From Acidobacteriota bacterium (GTDB taxonomy: Bacteria > Acidobacteriota > UBA6911 > RPQK01 > JAJDTT01), in contig JAPPLF010000061.1 in NCBI GenBank assembly GCA_028874215.1, positions 62,001-126,000 of the forward strand: 64,000 nucleotides of DNA. The letters are read 5' to 3'. Positions 13,838 through 62,743 of this stretch are shown here, in pieces. Below the pieces are notes generated by a model. The model had not been told where the DNA came from. It saw only the letters and a program-made list of their open reading frames with translations, and did no database searches. How positions within the stretch are numbered: the stretch's first letter is position 1; every line of letters starts with the position of its first letter. A program made the translations under genes and the position numbers.

Positions 13838-14009
13838 TGTGTCCGCCGGGCTGATCCCGGCTACCGGCAGAGAGTACGCTTCAAAAGGACTGTCTGACAA
13901 CCCCGGCAGAAGGGGGCTGACCTCTTTTCCCGTGCCGGATTGGGCGCGCCGGTGCTACAATACGGACGCTCCTGAAGACTCTGACCGAATCAACGGAGGA
14001 CTGACGGCC

Positions 14010-14738
14010 TTGACCTGGAGCCATACCGGAATACCGTCCAAGCCGGCATCAATGATTCTCTCGGCCTGTCTCGTACTGGGCGCGGTTTCGGTTCGGGCGC
14101 AGCAGCGTTGGGAGATTCCTCAACGGGAGAGGCATATCCAGATCGACGGGTTCACGGACGAGTGGCAGGGAGTGCCCTGGGTGAAGCTCTCTCCTTCAGC
14201 CGGCGACGAAGGGTTCAAGGAGGGAGATGTCGAACTTCGGATTCAGGGCCTCTGGGACAAGGAGAACCTCTACCTGGCGTTGCAGTGGACCGACGACGTC
14301 TGGGATATCGAGCGGGTCCGGAGGCGGGACGCGGTCTGGATGACGCCCGATCGGAGGCGCCGGGACCGCACACTGTTTTACGACTACCTGAAATTCCACA
14401 TTCGGCGGTCCGACTACGACTACACCTTCTGGATGACGCCTCGAATCGAGAGCCGGGGACCCTTTGGATGGCACCGCCTGCTGAAGGGTTACCGGGGGAT
14501 GGAGACCGCCACGTCCGCACCCATCGTCACCGCCAGGCAGAAACAGGAGACGGCCACGGTGGAAGTTCTCTTCGCCTGGAAGGAAATGAGCATCAAACCC
14601 AAGTCCGGCAGGGCCATTCCCCTGCTATTGACCCTGGCGGACAGCGACCTGCCCGGCACCTCCCTCGAGATAAAGCTGGAGCAACTCAAGTCGATCCGCT
14701 GGAGAGGTGCAATGAGTCTGGCCAAGACTCGACGATGA
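14010..14738 (+). CDS. Secreted protein with CBM9-like domain
   Basis: 242 aa from TTG 14010, chosen because GGAGG (13995-13999) precedes it and it supplies a Lys-containing n-region. The ATG at 14052 has no ribosome site. The signal peptide ends VRAQQ. The rest is a carbohydrate-binding family 9-like sandwich: IQIDGFTDEWQGVPWVKL, then LRIQGLWDKENLYLALQWTDD, the typical 'ligand-plus-aspartate' start of such domains, and later TVEVLFAWKEM. No catalytic domain is attached. Likely a periplasmic or surface binding protein. A TACAAT box at about 13959 could serve as its promoter. Confidence 0.72.
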   Translation: MTWSHTGIPSKPASMILSACLVLGAVSVRAQQRWEIPQRERHIQIDGFTDEWQGVPWVKLSPSAGDEGFKEGDVELRIQGLWDKENLYLALQWTDDVWDIERVRRRDAVWMTPDRRRRDRTLFYDYLKFHIRRSDYDYTFWMTPRIESRGPFGWHRLLKGYRGMETATSAPIVTARQKQETATVEVLFAWKEMSIKPKSGRAIPLLLTLADSDLPGTSLEIKLEQLKSIRWRGAMSLAKTRR

Positions 14739-14828
14739 ACCACCCGGGACCTGGCGGAATCGACTCGTCACGGCGTCCGAAGATCGATCCTGGCCGCTGA
14801 GTAAAATTCGGCGGCTCATCGCGGATCC

Positions 14829-15629
14829 ATGCAGCAGAAGAAGGTTCTCATCACCGGTGCATCGGCCGGAATCGGTGAAGCCACTGCCTACGCCTTTGCG
14901 GCGAAAGAGTGCGAGCTCTTTCTGGTGGCCCGCCGAAGCGAACGGTTGGAGCAGGTGGCTCATGAGTGCCGCCGCAGAGGCGCGCCCCAAGCCGTCTGGG
15001 CTTCCCACGATCTGAGCCGCCCTGGACGTGGAGCAGCAATCGTCCGCGAGTGCCGCGAGCAGCTCCAGGGTCTGGACGTTGTCGTTTCCAATGCCGGTTA
15101 CGGTGTCGTGGGTCCGGTGACCGAGATTCCCCCGGAGGCCGTGAATCGTATCTGGCAGGTCAACTTCCAGTCCGGATACGAGACCATCCACGCCGCTCTG
15201 CCCGGGCTGCTCCGGCAGCGAAGCGGACACATCGTCCTGGTCAGCAGCGTCATCGGGAAAAGGGCCATGCCCTTCAATTCGGCGTACTGCGTGACCAAGT
15301 TCGCGCAGGTGGCCCTGGCCGAATCGCTTTGGGGCGAGCTCAGAGGGAGCGGCGTGGGAATCAGCCTCATCTGCCCCGGTTATACGGCAACCGAGTTTCA
15401 GGAGGCGGCCACTCGCACCGAGAGCGCCCAAGCCGCCAGCCGGCCATTCCGTCCGGATACCTCGGAATCGGTGGCGCGCGCCATCGTCGGAGCGGTCCGG
15501 CGGCGGCGGCGGGAAGTGCACATGACGGGACTCGGAAAACTGCTCATCGGCCTGAACCGCCTGTCGCCGGCCCTGACCGCCCACGTCACAGCCTGGGTGG
15601 GCCGCCGTCAGCTCAAGAAGATCGTGTAA
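14829..15629 (+). CDS. SDR family NAD(P)-dependent oxidoreductase
   Basis: 266 aa classical short-chain dehydrogenase with a Rossmann fold. Visible motifs are TGASAGIG (residues 9-16) for the nucleotide, NAGYG after beta4, catalytic Ser in VSSVIGKR and the Tyr/Lys pair in YCVTK. The Arg after beta2 (VARRSERL) suggests NADP preference. A basic C-terminal tail (VGRRQLKKIV) follows. Substrate unknown. It ends one base away from the convergent DUF971 gene, so no room exists for a normal terminator. Confidence 0.9.
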   Translation: MQQKKVLITGASAGIGEATAYAFAAKECELFLVARRSERLEQVAHECRRRGAPQAVWASHDLSRPGRGAAIVRECREQLQGLDVVVSNAGYGVVGPVTEIPPEAVNRIWQVNFQSGYETIHAALPGLLRQRSGHIVLVSSVIGKRAMPFNSAYCVTKFAQVALAESLWGELRGSGVGISLICPGYTATEFQEAATRTESAQAASRPFRPDTSESVARAIVGAVRRRRREVHMTGLGKLLIGLNRLSPALTAHVTAWVGRRQLKKIV

Positions 15630-23301: not shown

Positions 23302-24057
23302 ATGAAGAAGTCGATTCAATTCCTTTCCGTTGCACTGCTCTCCGTAAACCTCGTCGTCCCCAATTCGACGGGCACTCGTCCGTTGAGCAATGTCAGGAAA
23401 TATCCCGTCTCCGTCGAGAAGGACGCCTACAGCCTGGGCGCCCGGCTGCTCAGCGAGAAGGAGGTCCTGCAGAACTTCGTCACTCCCCTGAAGGACCAAT
23501 ACGTCGTGGTGGAAGTGGGAATGTACCCCGGCATCAACGACATCGAGGTGGACAACAGGGACTTCGTACTCCGGATTGACGGTTTCGACCGGTCGTTCCG
23601 TCCCCAGGAGCCAAGCCGGATCGCCATCGGCCAGCAGCGGACGACGACCAAGCCCAAGAGGCAGGTCGGCATCGTCCCGTACGGCAACATCGAATACGAG
23701 AGGGGTCGAGGCCACTACCCCGATCACCGGCGTTTCCCCAGGCGCAGTGACCGGCGCGACGTCGACGACCCCGACTGGGATCGCCGCGATCGCGATCGGA
23801 ACCGCGGCTACGGCGGCCTCCGGACGGTCGTGGGGGTCGGCGTCGTGCTCGACCGTCAGCCCCAGCCCTCCAGCGACCAGGATCGGTACGTCATGGAGAC
23901 GGAACTGCACGACAAGAGTCTTCCTCAGGGGTTCGTGGGATCGCCGGTCGCCGGCCACCTCTACTTCGCAGTCGGGGAGTACAAGAAGAAGGCGAAGCAC
24001 CGGCTGGAATACCGCGGAAACGGGGAATCCGTCACCGTGGTCCTTCCCGCGAAATAG
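23302..24057 (+). CDS. Secreted protein of unknown family, paralog 1
   Basis: 251 aa with a signal peptide (MKKSIQFLSVALLSVNLVVP). Two conserved blocks are separated by an Arg/Asp-rich linker (RRSDRRDVDDPDWDRRDRDR, about residues 150-170). Block 1 holds LGARLLSEKEVLQNFVTPL and VVVEVGMYP. Block 2 holds LPQGFVGSPVAGHLYFAV and HRLEYRGNG. The pattern suggests a beta-sandwich with a flexible insert. The start follows AGGAG by six bases and lies 3 bp from the PEGA gene. The next gene is a tandem paralog. Confidence 0.78.
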   Translation: MKKSIQFLSVALLSVNLVVPNSTGTRPLSNVRKYPVSVEKDAYSLGARLLSEKEVLQNFVTPLKDQYVVVEVGMYPGINDIEVDNRDFVLRIDGFDRSFRPQEPSRIAIGQQRTTTKPKRQVGIVPYGNIEYERGRGHYPDHRRFPRRSDRRDVDDPDWDRRDRDRNRGYGGLRTVVGVGVVLDRQPQPSSDQDRYVMETELHDKSLPQGFVGSPVAGHLYFAVGEYKKKAKHRLEYRGNGESVTVVLPAK

Positions 24058-24101
24058 AACCAGCCTTTGCCGGTGTGGCCGACGACCTCAAGTGCATGAC
24101 C

Positions 24102-24809
24102 ATGAAACCGTTGATTCGATACCTTTCCGTTACTCTGCTCTGCGGCGTCTTCGGCTGGGCAAGCACGGACGGAACTCGTCCTCGGAGCACGGTCGACAAG
24201 TATCCCGCCGCCATTGAGAAGCAGGGTTACCGTCTGGGCGCCCGGCTGCTCAGCGAATTGGAAGTCCTGCAGGCCTTCGCGACTCCCCTGAAGGGGAAAT
24301 ACGCTGTCGTGGAAGTGGCTCTCTACCCCGGCAAGTCCGGCATTTCGGTGGACAACGGCGACTTCGTTCTGCAGGTTTCCGGCAAGAAGCAGGTCTTCCG
24401 CCCCCGGGAACCGGGGATGATCGCAGCCGGCATACAACGGAAAGCGTCGTCAACCAGGCGGACCGGTGTGGTTTCTTCGGGAACCATCGGATACGAATCG
24501 CGCCGGGAACGCTATCCGGAAGCCTATCCCGGCCGCCGGGGCCGCAATGACGACATCAGGTCCGGCGGCCCCCGCACCACGATCGGGATCGGAGTACTGC
24601 GCGACCGAACCCCCCGGCCCTCCACCGGCCGGGACCGGCAGGTCATGAAGACGGAGTTGGAGGACAAGGGCCTCCCCGAGGGCTTCACCGGGTCGCCGGT
24701 CGCCGGCTACCTCTACTTCGCAGTCGGCAAGTTCCGCAGGAAGGCGGAGCACCGGCTCGAATACCGTGGAAACGGCGAAGCCACCGTCCTGGTCCTTCCC
24801 GGGAAATAG
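24102..24809 (+). CDS. Secreted protein of unknown family, paralog 2
   Basis: 235 aa, a tandem copy of the preceding protein. Shared blocks are LGARLLSE-EVLQ-F-TPLK, VVEV-YPG, GFTGSPVAGYLYFAVG and HRLEYRGNGE, all in the same order. The Arg/Asp linker of paralog 1 is shorter here. The ATG at 24102 aligns with the start of paralog 1; ATG 24096 and an upstream codon at 24075 are less likely. The two copies are diverged well beyond a recent duplication, so both have probably been kept under selection. Confidence 0.76.
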   Translation: MKPLIRYLSVTLLCGVFGWASTDGTRPRSTVDKYPAAIEKQGYRLGARLLSELEVLQAFATPLKGKYAVVEVALYPGKSGISVDNGDFVLQVSGKKQVFRPREPGMIAAGIQRKASSTRRTGVVSSGTIGYESRRERYPEAYPGRRGRNDDIRSGGPRTTIGIGVLRDRTPRPSTGRDRQVMKTELEDKGLPEGFTGSPVAGYLYFAVGKFRRKAEHRLEYRGNGEATVLVLPGK

Positions 24810-28421: not shown

Positions 28422-29003
28422 TCAGTTGAGGCGCCGCAACAGGTATCCCGGACGGAAGGATCGCCGGGCGCGGATCCGGACCGAAAAACGCTCCCGCGGA
28501 TCTTCGACCCGGTCCAGGCTGAAGACGCCACGACCCAGAATTCGGGACAGCGCCTGGGTCAACTCGGGCCTGAGCTGCTCGAACGTCTCCGGGCTGTTGG
28601 GCGTATGGAGGCGATCATTGGCCAGCAGCAGCATCTCCCGGGTATGGAAGCGGACCCGGCCGCCCAGTATGGGGTCCGCTTCCAGCCGGCTGCAGGCCAG
28701 AAGCGTTTGTCTGAAGACATCCCGGATACACTCCTCGCGGTTCCCGTCCGGATCCTGCTTGCGATAGTAGAGAAGTCCGGGCCGGTCATCGGCCTGGTCC
28801 AGGCTGAAGTTGCCCTCGTGGGCCACCAGCAGTATGCCGGGTCCCCTGTGGACGTGACTGTAGTCATGGACGTCGATGAGCAGGTGTCCATCGACGTCCT
28901 GGTTCTGGATCCAGGAGTGGAAGACGGGAATGAACTCCTGCGTCTCGGCCCTGAGGGGCTCCTCCAGGAAGATCTTGAAACCGAGCTTCTGCCAGCCGCT
29001 CAT
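28422..29003 (-). CDS. Unknown protein, partner of the nitrite/sulfite reductase gene
   Basis: 193 aa, soluble. It starts 8 bp after the reductase stop, so the two are almost surely co-transcribed. Features are HLLIDVHDYSHVHRGPGILLVAHEGNFSLD in the first half and a helical second half (ECIRDVFRQTLLACSRLEADPIL). The His/Asp-rich VHDYSHVH could bind a metal, but this is a guess. I recognise no family. The tight linkage suggests a role in reductase assembly, electron supply or the same assimilation pathway. Confidence 0.75.
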   Translation of the reverse strand: MSGWQKLGFKIFLEEPLRAETQEFIPVFHSWIQNQDVDGHLLIDVHDYSHVHRGPGILLVAHEGNFSLDQADDRPGLLYYRKQDPDGNREECIRDVFRQTLLACSRLEADPILGGRVRFHTREMLLLANDRLHTPNSPETFEQLRPELTQALSRILGRGVFSLDRVEDPRERFSVRIRARRSFRPGYLLRRLN

Positions 29004-29011
29004 ACGCCAGC

Positions 29012-31264
29012 CTAGTGGACTCCCGAAATCTCCCGGGCCATGCGCTCGTAGCAGGCATGCGCCGCCTCGATGAAAAGCTGGCTCTCTTCCACCGACTGAT
29101 GGGCCGTGTCCCGCGTGGGGCTCTGCGGAGGCGATTTGTGACGGCGGAACAGGTAATTGGCGAACTTGCCGCCGGCGTACTTGTCGTAAAACAGTTCGGT
29201 ATCGTAGAAGCGGCGCCGGAATTCCGACACGACCGTGTCGGGAGCACCCGGAACGTCCAGGAACTCGGTCTTGACCAGGGCTCTGGCGGCCTCCACCATG
29301 GCTCGGTAGCTCAAAGCGTCGGCGCCGGCATAATCCGTTTCATCCAGCCTGATCTGGGCTTCGAAGACCAGTTGCTCGGCGGAAGCCAGATTGAACTGGG
29401 TCAGGGTGACCACCTCGCCTGCGCATTCTCCCGTCCCCAGGTCTCCCATCGAGAACTCTCTCGGATCGCCCCAATCGCTGTAGAAGGAGGAGTCGACCTC
29501 ATAGGCCGGAACCAGCAACAGGTCCTGCAGCATGGTCCGAAGGTCCTTCTTGCCGACGCTCCGGACGAATTGCTGAAAGCTCTCGCCGTTGCTCCGATGC
29601 TCCAGGTATCGGCCCGTGATCCGCTCCAGAACCTCCGGAACGTTCCGCGCCGGCGCCGACCCCATGGCCAGTCCGTAAGAGCCGGCGTTCTCGGTCCACT
29701 TCCCCCCCAGCACGACCTGGAAGTGAGGCACCTTGTGGCCCTTGATGGTCCGGCTGGTTCCGTAGAATCCAATGTCCGCAACGTGGTGCTGACCGCAGGA
29801 GTTGAAACAGCCGCTGATCTTGATGCGCAGGTTCTTGATCGAATCGTCAAGTTGGAAGAACTTGGCGCCGAGCGTCCTCCGGAGTTCGGCGGCCAGTCCC
29901 CGCGACGAGGCGATTCCCAACTTGCAGGTGTCGGTACCCGGGCAGGCCGTCACGTCCATGATCGTTCCGGCGCCGTGGGCGCCCAGACCGATCCGGTCCA
30001 ATTCACCGTAGAGCTCCGGCAGGTCCGCTTCGCTGACCCAACGCAGCACCATGTTCTGCTCGACGGTGGTCCGGATGTTTTCACCGGAGAAGCGCCGGGC
30101 GATCTGAGCCAGTTCCCGGGCCTGCCAACTCGACAAATCTCCCAAGGGAAGGGTCAGGGTGGCGACGGCGTAACCCGCCTGCCGCTGACGGTAGACGTTG
30201 GTCCGGAACCAGTCCTCGAATCCCGGAGGCGGCTGATGTCCGTTCAATGCGGCCGCCGGCCGGACCGCGGTTTCCTGGAATTCCGGAACCTCGGGCAAAA
30301 ACGCGGTCCACCGCCCGTCGGGAGGCATGATCTCGCGTTCCTTCAGGACCTCCTTGCGAAACTCGTCGATCCCCAGTTTCGCCACCAGGAACTTGATGCG
30401 GGCCCGGGCCCGGTTCTTCTTCTCTCCCAAGCGGGCGAACACCCTGGAGATGGCCTGCGCCGTGGGCAGCAACTCTTCTTCAGGCAGAAAGGAATCGAAG
30501 AGCTTGGCCTGGTGAGGCACCGCTCCCAGACCTCCGCCGACATACAGCTCGAACCCGCGCCTGATCCGGCCGCCCTCGCGCCGCACCACCGCAATGGCTC
30601 CCATGTCATGCATGCTGGCCAGCCCGCAGGCCTCTTCCCGGCATCCCGAGAATGAGATCTTGAACTTGCGGCCGAAGTCCTGGGCGTCGGGATGCCCCAG
30701 CAGGAAAGCGCTGCACGCCTTGGCGTAGGGACTGACGTCGAAAGCCTCGGTGTGGCAGACACCGGCCAGGGGGCAGGCCGTGACGTTCCGCACCGAATTC
30801 CCGCAGGCCTCCCGGGTCGTGATCCCCACCGATGCCAGTCTCCGCATCAGGTTGGGAGTGTCGTCGATGTGAACGAAATGGAGTTGATAGTCCTGTCTCG
30901 TGGTGACGTGGAGCACTCCATCCGAATACTCCTCCGCCGTATCCGCCAGCACCTCGAGCTGGCGGGGATTGACCCCCCCGTACGGGATCTTGATGCGCAT
31001 CATCCCGGGAGCGTCCCAAAGGGTCTCAGGCCCCTTGATGACGTCACCGGAGGGATAGGGGAGCTGCTGCGACCGGATCCCGTCGTGGCGGAAACCGTTG
31101 TCGTATCGCTGGCCGTAGATGCCGCGCCGCAACCGTGTCTCGGCGAAGATCTTCTCATCCAGCTTTCCCTGACGCCTCAGCTCCATCTGCATCTCGAAGA
31201 TGTCGATTTCGCGGCCCAGATCGTCCGGGATATCCGTGCCCAAATGCTCCTTCCAAGTAGTCAT
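29012..31264 (-). CDS. Siroheme nitrite/sulfite reductase with C-terminal helical extension
   Basis: 750 aa. Ferredoxin-type assimilatory reductase with two pseudo-symmetric halves. The siroheme/[4Fe-4S] ligands are in TACPGTDTCKLG (C-x5-C) and SGCFNSCGQHH (C-x3-C). A matching TACPLAGVC lies in the first half. Nitrite and sulfite reductases share these motifs and cannot be separated here. After about residue 620 there is an extra 130-residue, mostly helical tail (AEQLVFEAQIRLDETDYAGA) that resembles a HEPN-type bundle and is absent from standard enzymes. The ATG at 31264 follows GGAGGAG. Confidence 0.9.
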   Translation of the reverse strand: MTTWKEHLGTDIPDDLGREIDIFEMQMELRRQGKLDEKIFAETRLRRGIYGQRYDNGFRHDGIRSQQLPYPSGDVIKGPETLWDAPGMMRIKIPYGGVNPRQLEVLADTAEEYSDGVLHVTTRQDYQLHFVHIDDTPNLMRRLASVGITTREACGNSVRNVTACPLAGVCHTEAFDVSPYAKACSAFLLGHPDAQDFGRKFKISFSGCREEACGLASMHDMGAIAVVRREGGRIRRGFELYVGGGLGAVPHQAKLFDSFLPEEELLPTAQAISRVFARLGEKKNRARARIKFLVAKLGIDEFRKEVLKEREIMPPDGRWTAFLPEVPEFQETAVRPAAALNGHQPPPGFEDWFRTNVYRQRQAGYAVATLTLPLGDLSSWQARELAQIARRFSGENIRTTVEQNMVLRWVSEADLPELYGELDRIGLGAHGAGTIMDVTACPGTDTCKLGIASSRGLAAELRRTLGAKFFQLDDSIKNLRIKISGCFNSCGQHHVADIGFYGTSRTIKGHKVPHFQVVLGGKWTENAGSYGLAMGSAPARNVPEVLERITGRYLEHRSNGESFQQFVRSVGKKDLRTMLQDLLLVPAYEVDSSFYSDWGDPREFSMGDLGTGECAGEVVTLTQFNLASAEQLVFEAQIRLDETDYAGADALSYRAMVEAARALVKTEFLDVPGAPDTVVSEFRRRFYDTELFYDKYAGGKFANYLFRRHKSPPQSPTRDTAHQSVEESQLFIEAAHACYERMAREISGVH

Positions 31265-33450: not shown

Positions 33451-34551
33451 ATGCCCGGGACCATGTTCTCTATCCTTTCTCCCGACGGCGAAGTCAATTC
33501 GGAGGCCGACATTCCGGCCCTCGGATTAGATCAGCAGCTCCATCTCTATCGGTTGATGTGCTTGAATCGGATGGTCGACGACCAGATGATCCGGCTTCAG
33601 CGGCAGGGACGGCTGGCCTTCTACGTCGGGGCACGAGGCGAGGAGGCGGCCATCATCGGGAGCGCGTTCGCCCTGGAGCAGCGGGACTGGGCGGTCCCCT
33701 GCTACCGGGAGATGGGCGCCGCTCTGGTCAAGGGCTTTCCCCTGATCGATCTATTCTCCCAGTTTTTCGGAACTTCCCGGGACTTGACCAAGGGCCGGCA
33801 GATGCCGAACCACTACGCCAGCTATGACTTGAGGGTAACGTCGATTTCGAGCCCTGTGGGGAGCCAGATCCCCCATGCCATCGGTCTGGCCATGGGCGCC
33901 CGTCTGGCGGGCAGGGACGACGTGGCGCTGGTCTACTTCGGCGATGGCGCCACCTCCCAAGGGGACTTTCATGTCGCCACCAACTTCGCGGGAGTCTTCA
34001 AGACTCCGACCGTCCTTTTCTGCCGGAACAACCAGTGGGCGATTTCGGTTCCCGTAGAATCCCAGACCGCCTCCCGCAATATGGCCGTCAAGGCGGTCGC
34101 ATACGGTATCGAAGGGGTCCGGGTCGACGGAAACGATGTCTTCGCCGTCTACGACGTCACCTCGAAAGCGGTGGCGAAGGCAAGAAGGGGCGATGGTCCG
34201 ACGCTCATCGAAGCGGTGACCTACCGCCGGGGAGGCCACTCCACCTCCGACGATCCCAATGCCTATCGGGACATCGCCGAGGTCGAGCCCTGGGTCGAAC
34301 GCGATCCGATACTGCGGTTCCGGCTGTACTTGACCCGCCAGGGACATTGGGACGACGACAAGGAGCAGGCGCAGGAGGAGGAGATCCGCGCGCATATTCG
34401 CAGCACGCTGGAGGAGGCCTACAGTTCCGGACCCCCTTCCCTGGACACCATCTTCGACGACGTCTACGACGAGATGCCCTGGCATCTCCGGGAGCAAATG
34501 GAGTCGGTCTGCCTGCCTGAGGAGTTTCAGCCCGTCGAGCAGGGAACCTGA
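33451..34551 (+). CDS. bkdA1: Branched-chain 2-oxoacid dehydrogenase E1, alpha subunit
   Basis: 366 aa ThDP-dependent E1-alpha of the 2-oxoisovalerate dehydrogenase complex, decarboxylating 2-oxo acids from Val, Leu and Ile. The ThDP motif runs from YFGDGATSQGDFHVATNF to CRNNQW. The long N-terminus (to about residue 60) and PCYREMGAALVKGFP are typical of BCKDH rather than pyruvate dehydrogenase E1-alpha. The phospho-loop region is RRGGHSTSDDPNAYR. It heads the operon E1a-E1b-E2 with gaps of 21 and 10 bp. Confidence 0.93.
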   Translation: MPGTMFSILSPDGEVNSEADIPALGLDQQLHLYRLMCLNRMVDDQMIRLQRQGRLAFYVGARGEEAAIIGSAFALEQRDWAVPCYREMGAALVKGFPLIDLFSQFFGTSRDLTKGRQMPNHYASYDLRVTSISSPVGSQIPHAIGLAMGARLAGRDDVALVYFGDGATSQGDFHVATNFAGVFKTPTVLFCRNNQWAISVPVESQTASRNMAVKAVAYGIEGVRVDGNDVFAVYDVTSKAVAKARRGDGPTLIEAVTYRRGGHSTSDDPNAYRDIAEVEPWVERDPILRFRLYLTRQGHWDDDKEQAQEEEIRAHIRSTLEEAYSSGPPSLDTIFDDVYDEMPWHLREQMESVCLPEEFQPVEQGT

Positions 34552-34572
34552 CCCACTTCCGCGAAAAACCAG

Positions 34573-35550
34573 ATGCCGATTCGGAACATCATCCAGGCAG
34601 TCAACGACGGTCTGCGCACCGAGATGCGGCGCGACCCCAGCGTGGTGGTTCTGGGTGAAGACGTTGGGCATTTCGGCGGGGTCTTCCGCGCCACCCAGGG
34701 CCTCCAGAAAGAGTTCGGGGATCAACGGGTATTCGACACGCCGCTGGCCGAGTCGGGCATCATCGGGACCGCCATCGGCATGGCCATGTACGGTTTTCGG
34801 CCGGTTCCCGAGGTTCAATTCGCGGACTTCATCTACCCCGCCTTCGACCAGATCGTCAACGAATTGGCCAAGATGCGGTACCGTTCCGGCGGCCAGTACA
34901 CGTGTCCCATGGTGATCCGTACTCCCTATGGCGGAGGCATCCGGGGAGGGCACTACCACTCCCAGAGTCCGGAAGCCTATTTCGTCCATACTCCCGGTCT
35001 CAAGGTGGTGGTGCCGGCGACTCCCTACGATGCCAAGGGACTTCTGATTTCGGCGATCCGGGATGACAATCCGGTCATCTTCCTGGAACCGAAGCGAGTC
35101 TATCGGGCGGCCCGGGGCGAAGTTCCGGACGGCGACTACACCGTGGAACTGGGCCAGGCCAGCGTCGTTCGGGAGGGTCTGGACGTGACTGTCGCGGCCT
35201 ACGGCGCCATGCTCCACAACTGCCTTGAGGCGGCGGAACAATCGGAGGAGGAAGAGGGGATCTCCTGCGAAGTGGTGGACCTGAGAACCCTGATGCCCTT
35301 CGACGTCGAGACGGTCTTGAGTTCGGTCCGGAAGACGGGCCGCCTGGTCATTGTCCACGAGGCCCCCCGGACCTGTGGGTTCGGCGCGGAGCTGGCGGCG
35401 ACGGTCGGGGAGAAGGCGTTGCTGCACCTGCAGGCCCCGGTGACGCGGATCACCGGTTTCGACACCCCCTTCCCTTATGCTCGCGAAGAAGACTACCTGC
35501 CTGGGATCGAAAGAATCCGAAATGGCTTCCGCGAGATCGTCGAATTCTGA
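34573..35550 (+). CDS. bkdA2: Branched-chain 2-oxoacid dehydrogenase E1, beta subunit
   Basis: 325 aa E1-beta. Starts MPIRNIIQAVNDGLRTEM and contains VVLGEDVGHFGGVFRAT, the Glu-containing segment that activates ThDP, and PVPEVQFADFIYPAFDQIVNELAKM-type sequence found in all E1-beta chains. The C-terminal transketolase domain has VIVHEAPRTCGFGAEL. It forms an alpha2beta2 E1 with the preceding protein. The ribosome site is weak, so translation may depend on coupling. Confidence 0.94.
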   Translation: MPIRNIIQAVNDGLRTEMRRDPSVVVLGEDVGHFGGVFRATQGLQKEFGDQRVFDTPLAESGIIGTAIGMAMYGFRPVPEVQFADFIYPAFDQIVNELAKMRYRSGGQYTCPMVIRTPYGGGIRGGHYHSQSPEAYFVHTPGLKVVVPATPYDAKGLLISAIRDDNPVIFLEPKRVYRAARGEVPDGDYTVELGQASVVREGLDVTVAAYGAMLHNCLEAAEQSEEEEGISCEVVDLRTLMPFDVETVLSSVRKTGRLVIVHEAPRTCGFGAELAATVGEKALLHLQAPVTRITGFDTPFPYAREEDYLPGIERIRNGFREIVEF

Positions 35551-35560
35551 GTAGAGCCCT

Positions 35561-36736
35561 ATGCCGTACCAATTCAGGCTGCCCGATATCGGCGAAGGCA
35601 TCGTGGAAGGCGAGGTGGTTCGCTGGCTGGTTCGGATCGGGGACGAGATCGAAGAGGATCAGCCCATGGTGGAGGTCATGACCGACAAGGCCACCGTCGA
35701 GATCCCGTCACCCGTCAAGGGCCGCGTCGTGGAGCAGGGAGGCAATGAAGGAGACGTGGTCCAGGTCGGATCCGTGCTGGTGGTGATCGAGACCGGCAAG
35801 GAGGAAGCCGAGTCTCAGCCGGTCCACACCAAGTCTCATACACCCACTCGCAGGCCACCGATCCGGCGTCGGCGAAAAACGGCTCGGATCCTGGCAACCC
35901 CGGCCATCCGGCGCCTGGCCAAACAGATGAAGATCGACCTGGAAGGGGTCAAAGGCACCGGTCCGGGCGGACGGATCACGAGGGAGGACCTGACCCGGGC
36001 CCAGGCGCCTGCGCCGGTCTCTCCGGCCGTGCCGACCGCAGCCGGGCCCACCGAACGGATTCCCTACCGGGGGATCCGGCGGCGGATCGGCGACCATATG
36101 CTCCAGGCCTCCAACCACGCCCCCCATTTCACCTATGTGGAAGAGGTGGACGTGACCGAGTTGGTCCGGATGCGCCAAAGGGCGCAAGGCAGCGAGGAAT
36201 TCCAGGGAGTCCGTCTCACCTTTCTGCCCTATATCCTGAAAGCGTTGGCCCACGAGCTGAAACGGCATCCCGATCTGAACGCCCGTCTGGACCTGGATGC
36301 GGGGGAGATCGAACTCCGGAAGTATTACAACATCGGCGTCGCCACCCAGACGGAAGAAGGGCTCATGGTTCCGGTGATCCGGAACGTGGACCGGAAGAGC
36401 CTGCCGGAACTGGCCCGGGAGATCTCCCGGATCTCGCAACTGGCCCGTGAAGGGAACCTGAAGCTGGAGCACCTGCAGGGAAGCACCTTCACCGTGACCA
36501 GCCTGGGCGCCCTGGGAGGCATTGTCGCAACGCCCATCGTCAACTATCCCGAAGTGGCCATCCTGGGGGTTCACAAGATCGCGCCCCGGCCGGTCGTGCG
36601 CTCGGGCCGGATCGTGATTCGGGAAATCATGCATCTCAGCCTGTCCCAGGACCACCGGGTCGTGGACGGCGCCGTCGGCGCCCGGTTTCTGCAAGATGTG
36701 ATCGCCCGCCTGGAATCCCCCGAGACCGGCCTTTGA
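35561..36736 (+). CDS. bkdB: Dihydrolipoamide acyltransferase E2 of the branched-chain complex
   Basis: 391 aa core acyltransferase. One lipoyl domain (residues 1-78, lipoyl-lysine in MTDKATVEIPSP), a basic linker, an E3-binding domain (ATPAIRRLAKQMKIDL with GTGPGGRITREDL) and the catalytic domain with the active-site His in SQDHRVVDGAVGA. A single lipoyl domain is usual for BCKDH E2. No E3 (dihydrolipoamide dehydrogenase) gene follows, so the complex must borrow one encoded elsewhere. Confidence 0.94.
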   Translation: MPYQFRLPDIGEGIVEGEVVRWLVRIGDEIEEDQPMVEVMTDKATVEIPSPVKGRVVEQGGNEGDVVQVGSVLVVIETGKEEAESQPVHTKSHTPTRRPPIRRRRKTARILATPAIRRLAKQMKIDLEGVKGTGPGGRITREDLTRAQAPAPVSPAVPTAAGPTERIPYRGIRRRIGDHMLQASNHAPHFTYVEEVDVTELVRMRQRAQGSEEFQGVRLTFLPYILKALAHELKRHPDLNARLDLDAGEIELRKYYNIGVATQTEEGLMVPVIRNVDRKSLPELAREISRISQLAREGNLKLEHLQGSTFTVTSLGALGGIVATPIVNYPEVAILGVHKIAPRPVVRSGRIVIREIMHLSLSQDHRVVDGAVGARFLQDVIARLESPETGL

Positions 36737-61642: not shown

Positions 61643-62743
61643 TCAAGCCGGCCCGTGTTCCCGGGCGTAGAGTCTCGCAATCTTGCCCACATAGGCGGGG
61701 ACCGGATAGGAACGGTCCCCACCCGGATCGGCCCACACCAGTCCCGGGGGTGGGGCGGCCGTCCGGAGCGCGCCCACAACCGGATGAAGGGTGAGCCGCC
61801 GAAACGTGATCTGATGACGAACCGGTTTCAGCAAGCCGCCGATGTTGAGCGACAAGCCGAGCTTGCGATGAAAGGCCTTCTCCAGCGCATCGGCCGTCAG
61901 ATCCGGATCCGGATCCCTGACCCGAATCCGGGGAAATTCCCACATCCCTTTCAAGAATTCACCTTCCCGGTTCCGGGCCAGCAGGAATCGATCCCGGTGA
62001 CGGATCACGGCCACCGCGTAGCTCAACCGTCGCACGGCACGGCGCGCGCGGGGCAGGGGCAGCTTTTCCTGAACTCCGGCCCGAAGTCCGAGGCAACTCC
62101 CCTCCAGCGGACAGCGACCGCAACCCGGCGAGCGCGGCGTGCAGACCAGGGCCCCCAATTCCATGAGAGCCTGGTTCAGATCGGACACTTCCTCCCGGGC
62201 CGCGGCATAGCGGCTGATGCGGGTCAGCAGGTCCCACAGCGGCGGGGAATCGTCTCCGGCGGAGACGCCGTCCATCTTGAGGTAGCGGGCGAAGAGCCTG
62301 CGGATGTTGCCGTCCAGGATGGGCAGCGGTTGCCCATAGGCAATGGAGAGGACGGCTCCGGCCGTATACCGGCCGACTCCGGGCAACCGGATCATCTCTT
62401 GGTAGGTCCGTGGGAACTCACCCCCGTGGCGGTCGCGGATCTGCTGGGCTGCCCGGCGAAGATTGCGGGCCCGGCTGTAATATCCCAGCCCCGACCAGAG
62501 GGCAAGGACTTCGTCCTCGTCGCTTTCGGCCAGGTCTTCCAGCGTGGGATAACGCTTCAGAAACCTCCGGTAGTAGGGAACGACGGTCTTCACCTGGGTC
62601 TGCTGGAGCATCACCTCGGCCAGGAGGACCGGATAGGGCTCAAGCCGGCGGCGCCAGGGAAGATCGCGCCGGTGCCGCTGGTACCAGCGCAGCAGATCCC
62701 GGCAGAACGCGGCGACGGGAACCGGCAGTTCCAGCTTTTCCAT
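61643..62743 (-). CDS. mutY: A/G-specific adenine DNA glycosylase
   Basis: 366 aa. Removes adenine mispaired with 8-oxoguanine. Catalytic Glu in LLAEVMLQQTQV, helix-hairpin-helix LPGVGRYTAGAV with the Asp in ILDGNIRRLF, and the [4Fe-4S] motif C-x6-C-x2-C-x5-C in CTPRSPGCGRCPLEGSC. A C-terminal NUDIX-like domain (about 235-360) recognises the oxidised base. The ATG at 62743 is preferred over upstream codons that overlap the acyl-CoA dehydrogenase. 29 bp separates the two genes. Confidence 0.95.
   Translation of the reverse strand: MEKLELPVPVAAFCRDLLRWYQRHRRDLPWRRRLEPYPVLLAEVMLQQTQVKTVVPYYRRFLKRYPTLEDLAESDEDEVLALWSGLGYYSRARNLRRAAQQIRDRHGGEFPRTYQEMIRLPGVGRYTAGAVLSIAYGQPLPILDGNIRRLFARYLKMDGVSAGDDSPPLWDLLTRISRYAAAREEVSDLNQALMELGALVCTPRSPGCGRCPLEGSCLGLRAGVQEKLPLPRARRAVRRLSYAVAVIRHRDRFLLARNREGEFLKGMWEFPRIRVRDPDPDLTADALEKAFHRKLGLSLNIGGLLKPVRHQITFRRLTLHPVVGALRTAAPPPGLVWADPGGDRSYPVPAYVGKIARLYAREHGPA

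Follow-up and report, generated by a model that had tools for sequence, protein, structure and literature searches.

A small protein family tied to HEPN-tailed siroheme reductases in Acidobacteriota

Why does a siroheme reductase carry an added helical tail, and what is the role of the small protein that is encoded directly behind it? The question is raised by a locus on contig JAPPLF010000061.1 of an Acidobacteriota bacterium (assembly GCA_028874215.1), within the stretch of 64,000 nucleotides (positions 62,001 to 126,000 of the forward strand) that was analysed here and is called the window. The locus encodes a 750-aa reductase and, after a gap of 8 bp, a 193-aa protein, hereafter the partner. 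We found that the partner and the subfamily of tail carried by this reductase occur in an identical set of Acidobacteriota genomes, always as neighbours, and the partner probably serves the tailed enzyme as an obligate accessory subunit or as a maturation factor. The layout given in the original prediction, which was made from the window sequence alone, checks out in coordinates, minus strand, lengths of both proteins and the gap. The features of the locus, numbered as in the window, are as follows.

29012..31264, minus strand: NirA-type siroheme/[4Fe-4S] reductase, probable assimilatory sulfite reductase, 750 aa (PF01077 and PF03460; best PDB relative 1zj8)
31004..31096, minus strand: extra loop of about 29 residues (57-87), found only in the partner-linked clade in an alignment of 18 reductases
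30626..30775, minus strand: second cysteine set in the N-terminal half, C164-X5-C170 ... C208-X4-C213 (alignment)
29795..29944, minus strand: catalytic ligand set, C441-X5-C447 ... C486-X3-C490, invariant in 18/18 aligned reductases
29417..29431, minus strand: GECAG motif with conserved C614, the fusion point, where untailed relatives end
29015..29419, minus strand: C-terminal helical tail, residues 616-750, HEPN-type by profile matches, without a conserved RX4-6H RNase motif
28422..29003, minus strand: partner protein, 193 aa, of no known family, adjoining the tailed reductase in 29/29 genomes
28797..28874, minus strand: D/H/Y patch (D44, Y48, H50, H62, D69), unchanged across 24/24 homologues of the partner
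28599..28616, minus strand: DRLxxP motif of the partner, residues 130-135 (24 homologues: no variation at D130 and L132, R131 and P135 kept in 90% or more)

Linkage of the partner to the tailed reductase

In separate single-sequence searches, the partner was found in 15 of 199 Acidobacteriota genomes, and the reductase in 80 of them at E ≤ 0.001. Fifteen genomes had a reductase match that scored above 600 bits and covered the tail, and they were the same 15 that had the partner. Profile searches covered 396 Acidobacteriota genomes. The partner profile and the tail profile each matched 30 genomes, of which 29 were kept (E ≤ 1.8e-45 and E ≤ 3e-64, respectively); the marginal matches, G156 for the partner (E 0.005) and G364 for the tail (E 0.0028), were left out before the count. 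The two sets of 29 genomes are identical and represent 12 genera and 8 families. In all 29 the partner adjoins the reductase, directly downstream and on the same strand, in the same order. One of them, G306, was counted by means of its tail fragment, as its contig ends within the tail, 51 bases before the partner match. The distance between the stop and start codons is -4 to +15 bp in 19 of the 23 loci measured and 26-50 bp in the other four, whose start codon is uncertain. The flanking genes vary among these loci while the pair persists. The co-occurrence check thus bears out the tight linkage claimed in the original prediction: the partner lies beside the reductase in every genome rather than elsewhere in most of them, and the linkage is stronger than could be known from the window sequence alone.

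No partner was found in the plasmids or in the viral contigs searched. A wider contig search with a single partner sequence, not the profile, yielded three loci only, which are 90-94% identical and were not counted as further cases. The pair in L018 (JAPOYZ010000062.1) is 94-97% identical to that of the window. The pair was not named in the literature that we searched, mostly at the level of listings, on HEPN with sulfite/nitrite reductase or siroheme, DUF2061, DUF934, DUF2849, accessory proteins and NirA Cys161.

A tree was built from 21 partner-linked reductases and 13 others, 34 in all. In it the tailed reductases form a clade with support of 84, and within this clade the partner-linked ones form another with support of 100. 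The partner tree agrees with the reductase tree in the main groups. The simplest history is a single fusion of the tail, followed by later recruitment of the partner.

The reductase core and its tail

Two Pfam models, NIR_SIR (PF01077, E = 9.5e-56) and NIR_SIR_ferr (PF03460, E = 1.8e-34), each match the reductase in two stretches above the gathering scores. Having these paired half domains and the CX5C...CX3C quartet, it belongs to the siroheme sulfite/nitrite reductases. The quartet, C441/C447/C486/C490, is invariant in our core alignment of 18 reductases, eight partner-linked and ten without a partner, so that the catalytic siroheme/cluster motif is intact, as first reported from the sequence. 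The closest relative of known structure is NirA of M. tuberculosis (PDB 1zj8). NirA shares with the window enzyme the two NIR_SIR/NIR_SIR_ferr halves, the catalytic quartet, a Tyr and a Cys position considered below, and an insertion at the loop of residues 57-87, which is shorter in NirA. The window enzyme differs in its longer loop, in a tail of 135 residues with HEPN-type character, and in having the partner protein. It scored under every cut-off of the curated NCBIfam reductase equivalogs, among which the NirA equivalog PRK09567 was tested (best 270.6 bits versus 523 needed), which makes it divergent within the family.

The partner-linked reductases share further features of the core. Thirty-three residues lie between positions 55 and 87 in all eight of them, and four or five in all ten others. 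A second cysteine quartet in the N-terminal half, C164/C170/C208/C213, in which the second pair is spaced one residue wider than in the catalytic set, is complete in 8/8 partner-linked reductases and in 4/10 others; from its sequence, it is a possible second cluster site. C614, near the end of the core, is present in 17 of the 18.

The added C-terminal part begins after GECA and consists of residues 616-750. The original prediction had placed about 130 additional residues of HEPN-like helical character after residue 620. Five partner-less reductases (L037, L079, L080, L081 and L084) stop two residues past GEC, where the tail starts, and another (L087), which has no GEC, stops at about the same point. 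The best match of the window tail alone is the AbiV (HEPN) model (E = 0.0028). A profile of 12 tails, nine partner-linked and three not, matched HEPN chains in the PDB over nearly their full length (2hsb, 9e-7; 9xbd, 1.2e-6; 9xbc, 1.6e-6), which agrees with the predicted HEPN-like character. The three partner-less tails alone matched 2hsb at 0.011, and a comparison of partner-linked with partner-less tails by hhalign gave a probability of 96.9% (E 1.6e-10). The Pfam HEPN model matches four of the 12 tails, at best with 3.6e-4. Judged by these sequence comparisons, the tail is of HEPN type.

By itself, such a tail is not new. Here the original prediction was not borne out in the form it was given: HEPN is a known superfamily, and the tail is not peculiar to this system, since the same kind follows GECAG in reductases from two Bacteroidota genera, Persicobacter and Aureibacter, and from the Acidobacteriota genome G180. 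These have neither the partner nor the extra loop of the partner-linked clade. The genes next to the reductase are cobA and a precorrin-2 dehydrogenase gene in Persicobacter and Aureibacter, and CysH in G180. Compared with the HEPN superfamily (UPF0332 AF0298 2hsb, AbiV), to which the profile match spans nearly the whole tail, the window tail differs in being fused to a metabolic enzyme and in lacking the RNase motif. RX4-6H is the HEPN RNase motif, and none is conserved in the eight partner-linked tails of the alignment.

Another reductase relative, at L069:5103-7451 (minus strand; genome G010), has a C-terminal TusA sulfur-carrier domain (PF01206, 4.9e-15, residues 717-782), with a degenerate helical stretch between the reductase and the TusA domain.

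Substrate and pathway context

The own genome of the window (5.7 Mb in 113 contigs) has two NIR_SIR matches, which are both halves of the window reductase gene, and the search gave no second siroheme reductase in it. Contig C3 encodes CysH and, after it, a fused ATP sulfurylase/APS kinase; CobA is encoded on contig C73. With a sole siroheme reductase and these genes elsewhere in the genome, the enzyme is therefore most likely an assimilatory sulfite reductase that reduces sulfite to sulfide for cysteine.

Gene order in other pair-bearing loci is consistent with this assignment. In L125 the order is reductase, partner, DUF2061, precorrin-2 dehydrogenase, CobA, CysH, CysD and CysN; in L126 it is CysH, CysG, reductase and partner; in L025 it is CysH(DUF2061), siroheme genes, reductase and partner; and in L024 CysH is divergent from the pair. 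CysH was found in 15/15 pair-bearing genomes versus 100/199 genomes overall. In the alignment, Y50 (18/18) and C154 (16/18) fall on Tyr80 and Cys172 of the 1zj8 chain, positions that F and G occupy in the aligned plant nitrite reductase. NirA bears a Tyr69-Cys161 bond, which we take to be the Tyr80/Cys172 pair on the assumption that the 1zj8 chain carries an 11-residue tag. Sulfite is the likely substrate because of the sulfate-assimilation gene context, the co-occurrence with CysH and the Y50/C154 alignment.

In L025, CysH itself (13988-15082, minus strand) forms a fusion with the membrane protein DUF2061 (PF01507 and PF09834); in L125, DUF2061 has a gene of its own next to the partner.

The partner protein and its role

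The original prediction had called the partner a protein of no known family with a His/Asp-rich patch, and both statements stand. NCBIfam and PADLOC gave no match to the window partner, and its best Pfam and PDB sequence matches are at chance level (0.26 and 0.08, respectively); nothing convincing was found by Pfam among 24 homologues. By sequence comparison with the libraries searched here, it is a new family. Fifteen residues are invariant in all 24 aligned homologues (K10, W31, I32, L42, D44, Y48, H50, P55, L59, H62, D69, G76, F119, D130 and L132), and they include the His/Asp patch, D44, H50, H62, D69 and D130. In a comparison of the window with three of its close relatives, the partner has a dN/dS of 0.10-0.20, against 0.05-0.12 for the tail and 0.08-0.15 for the reductase core; the partner is under purifying selection. 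The AlphaFold model of the partner is alpha/beta with beta-alpha-beta units (pLDDT 60.7). When this model was compared by VIA-align, glutamine synthetase, seryl-tRNA synthetase, cyclases, arginine kinase and others were matched, all with Z ≤ 5.1, and therefore no fold was assigned. There was no HemQ or chlorite dismutase chain among the best 50 VIA-align matches listed.

There is a precedent for a small accessory protein encoded directly behind such a reductase: DUF934 (PF06073), whose gene takes up this position in Pseudomonas aeruginosa and Sinorhizobium. In P. stutzeri RCH2, DUF934 is likewise encoded directly downstream of sulfite reductase and is needed for sulfite reduction; its deletion caused a growth defect that was partly restored by sulfide and cysteine and restored by thiosulfate, with no rescue by sulfate or sulfite (PMC5554334). 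DUF934 was considered as a homologue of the partner and was rejected: the 24 partner homologues gave no Pfam match to it, and no sequence relation was found by hhalign (probability 0.2, with only two DUF934 rows). DUF934 was found in none of 199 Acidobacteriota genomes. By analogy, the pair may work like the DUF934 case without membership in that family.

We consider the following mechanism. An assimilatory sulfite reductase would have gained a HEPN-type helical domain at its C-terminus in this clade, and the small alpha/beta protein encoded directly downstream would have become its obligate accessory subunit, docking on the tail and on the extra loop 57-87. The partner would then aid maturation or stability, in siroheme/[4Fe-4S] loading or in keeping the enzyme in its active form. 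That the partner is an accessory subunit or maturation factor is the explanation we favour and hold to be reasonably likely; its maturation role in particular is put forward tentatively. Because no cysteine or other redox-cofactor motif is conserved among its 24 homologues, the partner would not act as an electron carrier itself.

Other explanations have to be weighed against this one. The partner could be an adaptor for electron delivery that docks ferredoxin or flavodoxin, in the role that CysJ has for CysI. The annotated neighbours include no CysJ-like gene, and the DUF934-type locus of Sinorhizobium includes a ferredoxin-NADP reductase, both of which would fit; however, the lack of a conserved cysteine and of any redox domain match argues against it, as do the absence of an identified ferredoxin gene among the annotated neighbours and the fact that untailed partner-less relatives cope without a partner. 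We regard such an adaptor as unlikely. It is also conceivable, though improbable in our view, that the pair is linked by descent only, having spread vertically or by transfer from an ancestral pair, and that the partner does something unrelated in sulfur metabolism. In favour of this, every paired reductase in the tree comes from one clade, and a single genus (g73) accounts for 13 of the 29 genomes, but the pair has been kept in eight families with differing flanking genes, and the partner and this tail subfamily were never found apart in the 396 genomes. Since the AbiV (HEPN) model is the best single-sequence match of the tail, tail and neighbour might instead be a defence or toxin-antitoxin module of HEPN with MNT. 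This was rejected as highly improbable because the RX4-6H motif is not conserved, no nucleotidyltransferase domain was found in the 24 partner homologues at E ≤ 1, and PADLOC matched neither protein; the gene setting, moreover, is biosynthetic.

A further explanation is that the partner handles siroheme, inserting or protecting it by means of a fold like that of coproheme decarboxylases and chlorite dismutases. For the model, Foldseek puts coproheme decarboxylases at all of the first 20 ranks (5.7e-4 to 8.8e-3, best probability 0.96), with chlorite dismutases at ranks 33, 36, 41, 42 and 45. The beta-alpha-beta units of the model and the siroheme genes that neighbour the pair in L125, L025 and L126 point in the same direction. 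However, the model is of low confidence, the Foldseek matches have a TM of 0.25-0.35 and an rmsd of about 14, and VIA-align puts other alpha/beta folds first. On sequence grounds, homology to chlorite dismutase/HemQ (PF06778) was rejected, with no Pfam match in the 24 homologues and a profile-profile comparison probability of 0.1 (13 Chlor_dismutase sequences). A coproheme-decarboxylase-like fold would therefore be a lead given by the model, and a siroheme-handling partner of this kind seems doubtful. The more specific arrangement of a two-part sulfite reductase new to description, in which a HEPN docking tail holds a dedicated siroheme-handling subunit, possibly coproheme-decarboxylase-like, that loads or guards the cofactor, with a possible second cluster at the N-half quartet, is quite unlikely.

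Several points weigh against our interpretation of the partner as an accessory protein of the tailed sulfite reductase. The evidence of linkage comes from one phylum and in large part from genus g73, and both profiles were derived from paired loci, which favours the recovery of such loci; a divergent tail like that of G180 was missed by the tail profile. Loci L035, L036 and L068 have the tail but no partner, and hence the tail does not serve solely for the partner. Its strong match to HEPN structures depends on the partner-less tails in the profile; partner-linked tails alone match weakly (2hsb first, 0.0067; 9xbd, 0.29), and the AlphaFold model of the tail, made from four near-identical rows, has a pLDDT of 36.6. 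The partner model is also weak: its pLDDT falls below 50 at residues 38-76, where most of the invariant patch lies. Physical binding, as in the complex raised by the original prediction, docking on the tail and the maturation role are inferences, and it is context that points to sulfite, in a family whose siroheme reductases are also able to reduce nitrite. The gene content, linkage, conservation, pathway context and the superfamily of the tail by sequence were computed here.

To our knowledge, the insertion of siroheme and cluster into sulfite reductases, and the accessory needs of flavoprotein-free enzymes, are poorly known. In this setting, a protein family that is nameless in the libraries searched is tied to one reductase clade in 29/29 genomes, and a HEPN-type domain appears to serve within a biosynthetic enzyme, not in defence.

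Two observations made by eye concern other parts of the window. Predicted secreted proteins encoded at 23302-24057 and 24075-24809 (plus strand) are similar to each other, with like starts and endings, and apparently arose by tandem duplication. At 33451-36736 (plus strand), consecutive open reading frames resemble pyruvate/2-oxoacid dehydrogenase E1 alpha, E1 beta and E2.

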